10,567 nucleotides of DNA, taken from the NCBI RefSeq assembly GCF_015207245.1, contig NZ_JADEXF010000033.1:1-10567 (forward strand). The letters run 5' to 3'. Both the position numbers and the translations under genes were made by a program. Below, one piece after another: positions 4,432 through 9,614 of this stretch. Source of the DNA: Nostoc cf. edaphicum LEGE 07299. Its GTDB lineage: Bacteria > Cyanobacteriota > Cyanobacteriia > Cyanobacteriales > Nostocaceae. How positions within the stretch are numbered: the first letter of the stretch is position 1; each line of letters begins with the position of its first letter. The notes beneath the pieces were generated by a model. It ran no database searches and was not told the origin of the DNA. It was given only the letters and a program-made list of their open reading frames with translations.

Positions 4432-4581
4432 CCCGCATTTCTCACAAGCTTTAGGCGTTTGATGGAGCAGAGGGGCAGAGGGGCAGAGGGGCAGAGGCGA
4501 AAGACTTACTGCAACTTCTCCCCTGCTCCCCTGCTCCCCTGCACAAGCGCAGGCTTTGAGAGGTGTGGTGAGAAATCCGGG
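4432..4581. repeat. 150-bp foldback repeat with octamer G-rich and C-rich arms
   Basis: The outer arms CCCGCATTTCTCAC (4432-4445) and GTGAGAAATCCGGG (4568-4581) match in 13 of 14 positions. Inside, the octamer CAGAGGGG is repeated about 3.75 times (4468-4497) and opposed by three copies of CTCCCCTG (4518-4541), so the arms can pair. Both flanking genes converge on it (BMP gene ends at 4375, TolC gene at 4626), so it may act as a bidirectional terminator. The preceding bases 4376-4428 look like an eroded copy of another G/C-run repeat. No gene is present in the 250-base gap. Confidence 0.7.
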
Positions 4582-6154: not shown

Positions 6155-6826
6155 TTAGCCGACAATCAAACCATCCTGAACTCGAATAATCCTTTGGGTT
6201 TGAGCAGCGATATCTGGTTCATGAGTGACAATCACAATCGTGATCCCTTGGTTATTAAGTTCAGTCAGTAAATTCATCACCTCATGGGAAGTTTCAGTAT
6301 CTAAAGCTCCTGTTGGCTCATCTGCTAAAACTAATGCAGGTCGGTTGACCAAAGCACGAGCGATCGCTACCCGTTGTTGTTGTCCGCCAGAGAGTTGACT
6401 AGGACGGTTAGCGATGCGTTCCCCTAATCCTACCTTTTCTAAGGCTTCTAATGCCCTTTCCCGGCGTTTTGGCTTGGGTAAGTTAGCGTAAACCATTGGC
6501 AACATGACATTTTCCAAAGCTGTCGCCCGCGCCAATAGGTTAAATTGTTGGAACACAAAACCTATCCTTTGGTTACGAATATAGGCTAATTCATCATCAT
6601 CAAAAGTCGTCAGGTTTCTGCCTTCAAAAATATAGTTTCCAGTTGTGGGACGATCCAGACATCCCAAAATATTCATGAGTGTAGATTTACCCGAACCTGA
6701 CGCACCCATAATTGAGACATATTCCCCTTCCTCAATAGAGAGTTCAATTCCCTTGAGTATGGGAACACTAACTTCTCCCAAGTGATAGGTTTTGGTAATA
6801 GATTCCATCCAAATCATTGTTGGCAT
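6155..6826 (-). CDS. MacB/LolD-type ABC transporter ATPase
   Basis: This 223-residue ATPase is complete by motif. Walker [10 protein letters not shown] spans residues 41-49, the Q-loop glutamine is at 93 (FVFQQFNLL), the signature LSGGQQQR is at 145-152, Walker B VLADE at 166-170 with the catalytic glutamate, and the switch histidine is at 202 (VTHEPD). The sequence between Walker A and signature ([23 protein letters not shown]) is that of the MacB/LolD/YknY group, which drives mechanotransmission-type export rather than channel transport. It should pair with the permease encoded at 8185-9465. The ATG at 6826 sits only four bases from the last heptamer of a 54-unit repeat array, with no Shine-Dalgarno sequence. 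ATGs at codons 4 and 7 are alternatives but likewise lack a site. Its original leader has therefore probably been displaced. Confidence 0.95.
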
Positions 6827-6830
6827 AAGT

Positions 6831-7208
6831 GAGTGCTGAGTGCTGAGTGCTGAGTGCTGAGTGCTGAGTTATGAGTTATGAGTAGTGAGTAGTGAGTGCT
6901 GAGTGCTGAGTGCTGAGTTATGAGTTATGAGTGCTGAGTTATGAGTTATGAGTTATGAGTAGTGAGTAGTGAGTAGTGAGTGCTGAGTGCTGAGTGCTGA
7001 GTGCTGAGTTATGAGTTATGAGTAGTGAGTAGTGAGTGCTGAGTGCTGAGTTATGAGTTATGAGTAGTGAGTAGTGAGTAGTGAGTGCTGAGTGCTGAGT
7101 GCTGAGTGCTGAGTGCTGAGTTATGAGTTATGAGTAGTGAGTGCTGAGTGCTGAGTTATGAGTTATGAGTTATGAGTTATGAGTAGTGAGTAGTGAGTAG
7201 TGAGTAGT
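6831..7208 (+). repeat. Heptamer array 1: 54 uninterrupted units
   Basis: Fifty-four contiguous 7-mers with no indel use only three variants: A = GAGTGCT, B = GAGTTAT, C = GAGTAGT. The order on the plus strand is A5 B2 C2 A3 B2 A1 B3 C3 A4 B2 C2 A2 B2 C3 A5 B2 C1 A2 B4 C4. Apart from one B-to-A step the blocks always cycle A to B to C. The array abuts the start of the ATPase gene. A 77-bp unique spacer (7209-7285) with no recognisable gene follows it. Confidence 0.97.
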
Positions 7209-7285
7209 GAGAGTTCATTTATAGCAGTAGTCACATAGGTTATGACTGTGTTGATTGCTCAAAGGCTTGAGAAAACTGTGTTTTT

Positions 7286-7337
7286 ACTCAGCACTCAGCA
7301 CTCACTACTCAGCACTCGCTACTCAGCACTCAGCACT
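7286..7337 (+). repeat. Heptamer array 2: about seven units, supplies S23 stop codon
   Basis: Seven ACTCNNN units plus ACT: ACTCAGC twice, ACTCACT, ACTCAGC, ACTCGCT, then ACTCAGC twice. It is in the opposite orientation to array 1 and the same as array 3. The minus-strand TGA of the S23 gene (7332-7330) and its last Cys codon are read from the repeat. Confidence 0.95.
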
Positions 7338-7737
7338 TTTCTTTAGTGGTGGGGGTTGAGTTTTTTTGATGTTTTTGTTTACTAACTGAGATGCGAAGAC
7401 CGCCAATAATTTTGCCCACTTCTTCTGCTTGATTTAAAAGTTGGTTGAATTTAACTTGATCGAGGTAGCCAACATCTAGAGCTATATAAAGTTGAGAACG
7501 CAGTTCTGCACAAGATGACTTAGCTATAGAAAGAAACTGATGAAATTCTCCTAAATAACTTCTTTCAAAACCCTCAGCAATGTTAGACATGATAGACACT
7601 GCTGCCCTTTGTATTTGTCCCGATAGTCCAAAGTCTCTAGCAAACGCACCCTGCTGAGTAACCTGATAAATATCTTTAGTAAGAATTCTTGCTTTTTGCC
7701 AAGCAATCAAATCTTCAAAACGCTCAACTTTACTCAT
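7330..7737 (-). CDS. Four-helix-bundle protein, S23 / 23S rRNA intervening-sequence family
   Basis: This 135-residue protein carries the family landmarks: [18 protein letters not shown] near the N-terminus, [23 protein letters not shown] in the middle (residues about 37-59), then [22 protein letters not shown] and a C-terminal helix [10 protein letters not shown]. The fold is a pentameric four-helix bundle in solved members. Genes of this family were first known from intervening sequences inside 23S rRNA genes, and the DGR accessory protein Avd is a structural relative that binds nucleic acid. Its biochemical role is otherwise unknown. The gene lies in the same direction as the efflux operon it interrupts. 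There are 38 bases between its ATG and array 3, with no good ribosome site (GTAG near the ATG). The lysine-rich tail STPTTKEKC and stop run into array 2, so the C-terminus may have been recast by the repeat. Confidence 0.9.
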
Positions 7738-7775
7738 TCTACTGACTACTCAAATTTCAAAATTGACACTAAATA

Positions 7776-8178
7776 ACTCAGCACTCAGCACTCACCACTC
7801 ACTACTCACTACTCACTACTCATAACTCATAACTCATCACTCATAACTCATCACTCAGCACTCATCACTCAGCACTCAGCACTCATCACTCATCACTCAT
7901 CACTCAGCACTCAGCACTCAGCACTCAGCACTCACCACTCACTACTCACTACTCACTACTCATAACTCATCACTCATAACTCATAACTCATCACTCAGCA
8001 CTCATCACTCAGCACTCATCACTCAGCACTCAGCACTCATAACTCATAACTCATCACTCATAACTCATAACTCATCACTCAGCACTCATCACTCAGCACT
8101 CAGCACTCATCACTCATCACTCAGCACTCAGCACTCAGCACTCAGCACTCAGCACTCAGCACTCAGCACTCAGCACTC
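7776..8178 (+). repeat. Heptamer array 3: 57 uninterrupted units, inverted relative to array 1
   Basis: Fifty-seven contiguous ACTCNNN units (7776-8174) plus ACTC, without indels. Five variants occur: ACTCAGC (A), ACTCATA (B), ACTCACT (C), ACTCACC (D) and ACTCATC (E). The block A A D C C C B occurs at units 1-7 and again at units 21-27, pointing to segmental duplications of about 20 units (140 bp). The last eight units (8119-8174) are all A. The array ends 6 bp from the permease stop codon. Confidence 0.97.
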
Positions 8179-8184
8179 TTAAAC

Positions 8185-9465
8185 TTAGTCGCTTCTTAAA
8201 GCGTTGATTGGATCTAATTTGGCAGCGTTCCGTGCTGGAATCACGCCAGCGATTAAGCCAACGGTTAACGAGAGTGCAAAGCCAGCAACGATCGACAAGA
8301 AAGAAATTACAAAGGGAAATTTGAAAACGCTTGCAGCCACAAAGGCTAATAAAACGCCAGTGACCATGCCAATACCTCCGCCGACAATGGAAATCACGAT
8401 CGCTTCGGCTAAAAATTGATTGAGTATGGCTGAATTGGTTGCTCCTACGGCTTTGCGAATCCCAATTTCCCGCGTCCGCTCAACCACAGAAACTAGCATA
8501 ATGTTAGCAATACCAATACCACCAACCACTAGAGAAATTCCAGCGATCGCTACCACCATTACTGTAAATAAACCTACAATATTAGTGAAGGTACTAACAA
8601 TATCAGCTTGATTGGTCAGTCGGAAATCATCAGCTTGTGGCGGATAAATATTATGACGTAGCCGTAAAAGATTGGTAACTTGAAACTGAGCGGCTTCTAA
8701 CTGCTCCTGATTAGCGCCTTTAACTAAAATTCCACTTACAGAAACGCCCACCAGGGCATTGTTCCCAACTAGTCTCTTCGACATACTAGTTAAAGGAATA
8801 AAAATCTGGTCATCTCGATCCATTGGCCCTTGAGAGCCTTTAGGTTCCATCACCCCAATTACTTCATAAGCCTCTCCCTGAATCCGAATTTTCTCACCGA
8901 TCGGATTTACACCTTGTCCAAAGAGTGTTTTTTGCACTGTCGGGCCAAGAATAGCAAGCTGTGCGGCAGTATCTAGTTCATCCTGAGTAAAATATCTCCC
9001 TTGTTGGGGGCGAGTATTTCTGACTTCTGGGTAGTTCAAATCAGTGCCATAAATGGTTGTTGAGGTGTTCTGTCCTGCATAGACAACTTGAGCGCTGCGT
9101 TGGAGATAAGCAGAAACCATCTGTGCTGATGGCGCTTGTGTAGCGATCGCCTTTGCATCTTCCCAAGTCAACGTGCTGCTAGAACCTACTCCTTGACGGA
9201 CATTCCCGCTTCTTGCTGCACCCGCCAAGATTTGGATCACATCTGTACCCAATGCTTGTATCTGTTGCTCAACTCCTTTTTGCACTCCCTGACCGACAGA
9301 AGTAATGGCAATAACTGAAGAAATCCCAATAATCACGCCCAACATAGTTAGACCTGTGCGTAATTTGTTACTCCACAGAGTCTCTGCTGCCATTGTCAAG
9401 ATTTCCAGCAATGGTACTGTGCGGGTATTCTTCGCTTTGTAAAAGCCCTTAGATATCTTAAACAT
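8185..9465 (-). CDS. MacB/FtsX-type ABC transporter permease
   Basis: This 426-residue protein has the MacB permease plan. A first membrane helix lies at about residues 37-57 (LTMLGVIIGISSVIAITSV), followed by a periplasmic core of about 230 residues (QALGTDVIQILAG, then RYFTQDELDTAAQLAILG, KIRIQGEAYEVIGVM). Three C-terminal helices lie at about 295-327, 350-376 and 385-412. The coupling motif RTREIGIRKAVGA is at residues 330-342 and the end is DPINALRSD. It lacks a fused ATPase domain, so it needs the separate ATPase encoded at 6155-6826. The start at 9465 has no evident ribosome site; Met25 is an alternative, since homologues often begin near AxTLWSNKLR. The gene order adaptor-permease-ATPase resembles both MacAB/YknXYZ and cyanobacterial DevBCA systems, and the substrate cannot be told from sequence. 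Confidence 0.93.
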   Translation of the reverse strand: MFKISKGFYKAKNTRTVPLLEILTMAAETLWSNKLRTGLTMLGVIIGISSVIAITSVGQGVQKGVEQQIQALGTDVIQILAGAARSGNVRQGVGSSSTLTWEDAKAIATQAPSAQMVSAYLQRSAQVVYAGQNTSTTIYGTDLNYPEVRNTRPQQGRYFTQDELDTAAQLAILGPTVQKTLFGQGVNPIGEKIRIQGEAYEVIGVMEPKGSQGPMDRDDQIFIPLTSMSKRLVGNNALVGVSVSGILVKGANQEQLEAAQFQVTNLLRLRHNIYPPQADDFRLTNQADIVSTFTNIVGLFTVMVVAIAGISLVVGGIGIANIMLVSVVERTREIGIRKAVGATNSAILNQFLAEAIVISIVGGGIGMVTGVLLAFVAASVFKFPFVISFLSIVAGFALSLTVGLIAGVIPARNAAKLDPINALRSD

Positions 9466-9482: not shown

Positions 9483-9594
9483 AGAATGCAGAATTTAGAA
9501 TCCAGAATCAAGTTAGTGGAGGAATTAAACCCACATATTTATCCGCTAGTCAAACTCGAATTCATACTGAATCCTGACTCCTGACTCCTGAATT
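9483..9594. repeat. Short heptamer repeats in the adaptor-permease gap
   Basis: Four AGAATNN units (9483-9510) and four CTGANTC-like units (CTGAATC, two CTGACTC, CTGAATT; 9567-9594) occupy most of the 149-bp gap between the adaptor and permease genes. They are of the GAATTC/CAGGAGTCAGGA type found in Nostoc intergenic DNA. No gene is present. Confidence 0.75.
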
Positions 9595-9614
9595 CTTTAT
9601 TGTTAAAACTAACT

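Follow-up and report, generated by a model that had tools for sequence, protein, structure and literature searches.

The S23 gene of Nostoc cf. edaphicum LEGE 07299 and the mirror-image arrays of heptameric repeats on its two sides probably constitute one small mobile element, which has the build of the intervening sequences (IVSs) of 23S rRNA genes but lies free between genes. We consider gene and arrays to be one unit because inverted periodic flanks are found at most S23 loci and very rarely at control open reading frames (ORFs), because the two arms of a cassette match each other, and because the heptamer sequence follows the S23 lineage. Mobility is suggested because near-identical cassettes occupy unrelated sites, occur in both orientations, and are present, truncated, or absent in close relatives. 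To our knowledge, no function has been assigned to S23 genes, although they have long been known, and we know of no origin for the heptameric repeats of cyanobacteria. The shared architecture and the lineage-specific match open both to testing.

An S23 cassette within an exporter operon

The window analyzed here is a stretch of 10,567 nucleotides from a draft genome of 4.99 Mb in 997 contigs, which is 72.7% complete (G000). On the minus strand, it carries a tripartite exporter in the order HlyD-type adaptor, MacB-type permease, ABC ATPase, and outer membrane efflux protein, as assigned by Pfam. A preliminary description of the window proposed that a cassette of 1.36 kb with an S23 gene parts the permease from the ATPase. 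The Pfam assignments bear this out, with a gap of 1358 bp between the two genes, outside any rRNA gene. The features of the region are as follows:

8185–9465, minus strand: MacB-type permease (MacB_PCD + FtsX; Pfam PF12704 and PF02687), flanking the cassette upstream
7776–8178, minus strand: heptamer array A, 57 TGAGTNN units in the same sense as the S23 gene (repeat scan)
7330–7737, minus strand: S23 gene (23S_rRNA_IVP / four helix bundle protein), 135 amino acids (Pfam PF05635, TIGR02436)
7284–7340, minus strand: seven heptamers oriented as array A, linking S23 to the dispersed repeat (repeat scan)
7206–7290, minus strand: core of a dispersed MITE-like repeat, the former "spacer" (matched in 32 of the 53 Nostoc genomes)
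6830–7212, plus strand: heptamer array B, 54 ACTCANN units, inverted relative to array A (repeat scan)
6155–6826, minus strand: ABC ATPase of the exporter (Pfam PF00005), flanking the cassette downstream

The repeat scan reproduced the 54, 7, and 57 heptamers originally reported, together with their coordinates, although the counts of 57 and 54 rest on a short-contig draft assembly and may be inexact. Among the seven heptamers after S23 (about 7340–7284), four TGAGT units run without interruption, and the S23 stop codon falls within the first of these downstream heptamers. The near-exact fit of the cassette between stop and start codons was confirmed as well: a gap of 12 bases lies between the permease stop and the first perfect TGAGTNN unit, and one of 3 bases between the last unit of array B and the ATG of the ATPase. 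The "spacer" is indeed present, yet it is not a plain spacer but a separate dispersed repeat. No Rfam family matched the window at the gathering score. Folding of the cassette RNA predicts a single long stem with −752.4 kcal/mol, a value computed without a shuffle control at such length.

Four-unit TGAGTNN matches number 213 in the 5-Mb draft genome, including 106 in the window. With 411 and 389 bp, the window arrays are the longest among the 112 paired loci described below, where the next longest measures 257 bp. The window cassette is the most expanded copy of the S23 element that we encountered.

The S23 protein shares its fold with Avd

The 135-residue protein scores 128.5 bits against PF05635 (cut-off 33.8, E = 1.5e-37) and 116.7 bits against TIGR02436 (cut-off 24). 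A structure model built from 33 aligned S23 proteins has a mean pLDDT of 93.3. In a structure search, it came closest to two S23 proteins, 2gsc (E 4e-7) and 2rld (E 8e-5), and next to the Avd chains 8ub7_B and 4dwl_D with E-values of 0.007–0.008 and TM-scores of 0.68–0.70; 4dwl and 8ub7 represent Avd alone and in the complex with reverse transcriptase, respectively. The relationship to Avd named in the preliminary description stands at the level of the fold, whereas the Avd profiles score below their curated cut-offs (NF033474, 25.1 versus 80 bits; bAvd, 28.4 versus 40 bits). Avd works together with reverse transcriptase and RNA, which makes it plausible that S23, with a model of the same fold, may bind nucleic acid. 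A Pfam scan of 10 window proteins identified no reverse transcriptase.

Inverted heptamer arrays mark S23 genes across phyla

We compared about 250 bp upstream of each S23 gene with the stretch running downstream from near the gene end, scoring inverted matches (score at least 14) with a periodicity of 5–11 bases at an identity of at least 0.6. Other ORFs of at least 100 codons from the same loci served as controls and were tested alike. Inverted periodic flanks were found at 112 of the 149 S23 loci (37 failed the test) but only at 11 of the 2364 control ORFs, six of which turned out to be S23 by Pfam, and another two overlap an S23 gene or lie next to one. Because S23 flanks were allowed to start further into the gene than control flanks, the controls were also retested in trimmed form, giving 11 of 2338 when begun 75 bp inside the ORF and 8 of 1098 for ORFs of 100–160 amino acids. 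A variant starting at the ORF end detected 81 of 149 S23 loci versus 11 of 2351 controls. A chance neighborhood of S23 and heptamers is ruled out by these control ORFs. The enrichment of heptamers in S23 flanks that the preliminary description had asked about is therefore found, and more broadly than first proposed.

The period is 7 at 106 of the 112 loci, 8 at four, and 9 at two, with median array lengths of 5.1 units upstream and 5.7 units downstream. The positives comprise 7/7 of the nearest cyanobacterial loci, 52/70 of the others, and 21/32 and 32/40 of two sets from the genus. By phylum, named records were positive in Chloroflexota (12/16), Nitrospirota (10/12), Cyanobacteriota (7/7), Acidobacteriota (7/7), Myxococcota (5/7), Planctomycetota (5/5), Pseudomonadota (2/8), and Thermodesulfobacteriota (2/6), as well as in six phyla with a single record each (6/6) and in unclassified records (3/3). 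These non-Nostoc loci are the best 80 of 554 relatives, that is, the S23 lineage of the window itself, and they mostly stem from metagenome bins, the phylum labels of which may err (L031 and L032 carry two phyla for apparently the same sequence). The genus loci consist of 29 among the matches listed, five from G000 including that of the window, and 40 lower-scoring ones chosen non-randomly for long contigs; 5 of 154 loci were dropped because of short flanks. Among the best 80 of 554, the nearest named relatives of the window S23 belong to Nostoc and Calothrix. On plasmids, 25 records match S23, and all three copies that we read, two of them near-identical and one strain accounting for these, have inverted heptamers. 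No match to S23 was found in phages. At L086, in G041, S23 is followed by a 45-unit GGTTAGC array, for which a matching upstream array was not found; it is another expanded case.

Heptamer arrays also occur alone, and we compared the two situations in 47 Nostoc loci. An inverted partner within 600 bp was present for 49 of the 65 arrays near S23 and for 4 of the 68 arrays away from it, where random placement would yield 2 and 1, respectively. A coarser partner test gave 25/65 near S23 and 4/68 away (shuffled mean 4.1). In a stricter scan for spaced periodic pairs, 26 inverted pairs were located at S23 and one in the remaining 418 kb, as opposed to four direct pairs at S23 and three elsewhere. 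Inverted pairing is characteristic of S23 rather than of heptamers as such. The idea that the solitary arrays are inverted pairs that lack S23 is accordingly unsupported in Nostoc.

The arms match each other, and the heptamer follows the S23 lineage

In 92% of 84 loci, the upstream heptamer matches the downstream array of its own locus in the inverted sense, versus 19% for the downstream arrays of other loci and 7% for its own array in the direct sense. Across 75 sites sharing no flanks, protein identity correlates with heptamer similarity (Mantel rho 0.525; reached in 0 of 999 permutations, the highest permuted value being 0.197). A heptamer similarity of at least 0.8 is seen for 67% of the pairs above 80% protein identity, 35% of those at 60–70%, and 0–1% of those below 50%. 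The relatives of the window S23 in other phyla mostly have units such as TGAGTGC, TGAGGAC, TGAGTCC, or TGAGTGA, with some exceptions. Such a correlation would be expected if the cassette moves together with its ends, and it is by itself no proof of recognition.

Probable movement, flips, and losses

Four S23 copies in the genome G031 (L325–L328) are 99.7–100% identical, each located at a contig end, and the left flanks readable for three of them are all unrelated. Beyond the heptamers, these copies share an extra inverted repeat of 24 bp at their termini, GGGAGCRATGCGATTTTGTGAGAT, and they may therefore have been mobilized by an ordinary transposase; one flank resembles an IS5-type transposase gene by eye. 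The S23 genes at L257, L264, and L340 are 96–99% identical and reside at three sites whose flanks are not homologous; the 24-bp repeat is missing there. By eye, their similarity extends roughly as far as the outer array ends.

We also inspected two sites shared by many genomes, with 30 loci at site 1 and 26 loci at site 2, chosen to include forward, inverted, and empty states, so that the proportions are not frequencies. At site 1, 16 loci carry S23 in the forward and 7 in the inverted orientation, and 7 lack it or hold a truncated copy; at site 2, the corresponding numbers are 2, 9, and 15. In the loci displayed, the outer arrays keep a constant orientation while S23 flips. On quick trees of the flanks with SH-aLRT support only, the inverted state at site 1 amounts to three changes, two of which are forced by well-supported branches, the two forward copies at site 2 to two changes, and absence to seven (site 1) and nine (site 2) changes. 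The arms are fused head to head in L299 and L300. S23 remnants, detected by eye or by a match, persist in L297, L301, L302, and L303 and, at site 2, in L319, indicating that some of the absences are losses. Other site-2 loci devoid of S23 bear other heptamers, some of them inverted. The distances of S23 and of its flanks agree weakly (Mantel r 0.40, with 11 of 999 permutations as high, and 0.30, with 20 of 999), a level compatible with vertical descent and loss as well as with re-insertion. Five of the 15 full-length S23 genes at site 1 contain internal stops; when these five copies are left out, dN/dS is 0.127 (44 pairs) and 0.153 (45 pairs), and S23 at the shared sites is under purifying selection.

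Cassette edges lie within 15 bp of an open-frame end in 45 of 75 cases on the left and 36 of 85 on the right, compared with 7% of 1361 random points and with 38/157 and 30/135 for the edges of solitary arrays; all of these array figures are inflated, as heptamers can hold stop codons. We read no clean target-site duplication, and the sites without S23 still contain arrays. A companion gene was rejected: five gene clusters recur at three or more of the 75 sites, the largest at eight sites and histidine-kinase-like by eye, and the remaining ones, where recognizable by eye, are common families too. No recombinase, transposase, or reverse transcriptase was recognized by eye among these clusters.

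The MacB site in Nostoc relatives

The permease has matches in 52 of 53 Nostoc genomes, and we read the interval behind it in 50 of the 52 (G011 and G017 were left out). S23 resides at this MacB site in four genomes, G000, G005, G002, and G040; the copies in G002 and G040, two of the three other than that of the window, are each interrupted by one TAA. Near full-length matches to the S23 DNA of the window occur only at the MacB site of these four among the 53 genomes (12 candidates scored in each), and hence the window's own S23 DNA was discarded as a multi-copy element. The giant arrays are confined to G000; the other three copies have uninterrupted runs of 3–7 units. Inverted heptamers without S23 occupy the site in three genomes, G030 (permease 99% identical), G036, and G019, and in G041 no ATPase was found within 3.5 kb of the permease. 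The other 42 intervals have a median length of 82 bp; 25 of them contain at least one TAATTCG or TAATTTG unit, and six measure at least 800 bp. The preliminary description had taken heptamers without S23, and S23 at this site without repeats, as arguments against its reading: the former are common, whereas no relative among the 50 genomes read has S23 at the MacB site without any repeats.

The intervals of 880–1060 bp at L135, L142, L149, L157, L158, and L164 contain neither S23 nor a heptamer of the TGAGTNN type.

The dispersed repeat in the cassette is found at many sites lacking S23. Its fuller copies (e.g., L231, L237, and L239) extend over about 120 bp from TATAGC to GCTATA and have their own internal GTGCTGAGTGCTG stretch. 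G040, G019, and G017 each hold at least 15–17 matches, many being fragments, and the repeat gave no signal as a structured RNA (z −0.45). In G030 and G036, it is kept while S23 is missing, and the junction runs through heptamers. This state would fit a deletion between the direct heptamers around S23; alternatively, S23 may never have been there.

Heptamer counts and alternative explanations

The preliminary description suggested that S23 might be a repeat-spreading or repeat-maintaining unit. In its stronger form, this would mean that the protein acts in trans, recognizing the heptamer of its lineage and driving the growth and spread of arrays, with the dispersed heptamer STRRs as its products. 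Among 242 cyanobacterial genomes of the class, S23 at least 75% identical to that of the window is found only in G000, G181, and G103, and precisely these lead in matches to three TGAGTGC units (86, 135, and 128; next 16 and 14; none in 231 genomes), for which the odds by chance are 4.3e-7 with kinship ignored. Sixteen of the 86 matches in G000 lie in the window. Within the genus, the four S23 carriers have 86, 10, 55, and 110 TGAGTGC matches versus a median of 2 in the 49 others (p = 0.0007, kinship ignored; in descending order of count, ranks 1, 2, joint 3, and 8 of 53). On the other hand, G030, G038, and G031 are also rich in TGAGTGC (55, 54, and 30 matches) with no full-length match to the window S23 DNA among the 12 candidates scored in each. 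For a second heptamer type, AGGGTGT, we saw no amplification in the genomes known to carry its S23, G004, G028, and G008, to which this comparison is limited: they have 1, 1, and 0 matches, the two being the S23-flanking arrays themselves, and G030 has 5. Most solitary arrays are without an inverted partner, and the MITE-like repeat bears the same heptamer. The spreading role thus agrees with the TGAGTGC counts and disagrees with those of AGGGTGT and with the three rich genomes. An action of S23 on heptamers elsewhere is possible from these counts, and the full account of arrays driven in trans seems to us somewhat doubtful.

Passive hitch-hiking appears unlikely. It would take the arrays to be recombination-prone and S23 to be a passenger that enters, flips, and leaves via array homology. 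Solitary arrays are common enough for this, with 68 away from S23 in the 47 loci, and flips and losses from arm to arm require no special enzyme. However, a passenger would hardly retain matched inverted arms across phyla or a lineage-specific heptamer, and, since a solitary array has one orientation, entry by homology yields no inverted arms. A role in cis, in which the arrays serve the S23 mRNA or the neighboring genes as a stabilizing stem, a terminator, or an operon-processing site and S23 is an ordinary slow-moving gene, would suit the predicted long stem and the cassettes' frequent start at the end of an upstream open frame, but it leaves unexplained the near-identical cassettes at unrelated sites, their presence and absence among close relatives, and the many different heptamers for one job, and is quite improbable.

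Proposed mechanism of the S23 element

For the S23 gene and its inverted arrays as one mobile element, we envisage that the arrays are the ends of the element and that S23, which has the Avd fold, would bind them either as DNA or as the RNA stem that they could form. Cutting or copying would be left to a host enzyme, and flips could arise by recombination or template switching between the arms. In the window, slippage may have expanded the usual 4–7 units to 57 and 54. In the operon RNA, pairing of the arms would give a stem several hundred base pairs long and accessible to RNase III.

A wider and more tentative hypothesis regards S23 elements as a class of minimal mobile elements across bacteria, each about 0.5 kb long, which combine an Avd-fold protein with lineage-specifically recognized inverted heptamers and might be mobilized without a recombinase of their own, for example by way of a hairpin or an RNA intermediate with the help of host enzymes. 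Members that inserted into rRNA genes would then be the rRNA IVSs, and many heptameric repeats of cyanobacteria and Xanthomonas could be footprints of S23 elements. If true, the rRNA intervening sequences would be a special case of a wider element.

Comparison with known systems

The IVS in the 23S rRNA of Coxiella burnetii is described as a selfish genetic element; its terminal stem measures 28 bp, the S23 ORF occupies the loop, and tandem heptameric repeats precede the start of S23 (PMC4990558). The window cassette resembles such S23-bearing rRNA IVSs in its complementary ends enclosing an S23 ORF, here as inverted arrays with a predicted stem. Unlike the C. burnetii IVS, it lies between protein genes, has arms of 54–57 heptamers, and differs in the heptamer sequence. 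S23-type ORFs within rRNA insertions are also noted for CPR bacteria (PMC11270868), and passages of PMC8700078 and PMC5524665 merely list S23-type genes.

Tandem heptamers of Xanthomonas and Nostoc mostly comprise four units, according to PMC4692102; inverted pairs number 70 and 75 in two genomes of Xanthomonas and are few in Nostoc PCC 7120, and no general association with mobile elements is reported. Our solitary arrays are likewise seldom paired in Nostoc. In contrast to the heptamers described there, the inverted pairs found here enclose S23, and the text of that article mentions neither S23 nor four helix and has no occurrence of "intervening" or "transposase" (PMC4692102). A literature search, with most subscription journals and bioRxiv preprints outside its coverage, returned no paper tying S23 to flanking heptamers outside rRNA genes.

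With the Avd of diversity-generating retroelements, S23 has in common the fold and weak profile scores; it differs in staying under the profile cut-offs and in the absence of a reverse transcriptase among the 10 window proteins. As a class, S23 cassettes display the terminal inverted repeats and the near-identical copies at unrelated sites that characterize MITEs and insertion sequences. Unlike these, their ends are tandem heptamers of varying length and a conserved gene lies inside; the cassette itself carries no transposase, and no clean target duplication was read.

Other repeats in the window

Several further repeats and genes are present in the window. At 4466–4543, between PnrA-like and TolC-like genes, octamer arrays of four GCAGAGGG and three CTCCCCTG units are inverted relative to each other across a spacer of some 20 bp, without S23, and their unit resembles those at the S23 loci L281, L336, and L338. 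Heptamer-like stretches of the AATTCAG/TCAGGAG type, in inverted order by eye, lie at 9495–9596 between the permease and the HlyD gene; this type also surrounds the S23 loci L109, L112, and L114. An array of 6.7 TAATTCG units is located at 484–530, and TAATTCG is also seen in the MacB–ATPase interval of many relatives. Positions 1–290 contain three in-frame 96-bp repeats encoding EKLPPELLPEALAAAREIQ-like protein repeats, and positions 2474–2591 a 21-bp tandem repeat with 5.6 copies at 98%. A Phd-type antitoxin, scoring under its cut-off, and a PIN-domain protein at 1600–2237 are likely a toxin-antitoxin pair.
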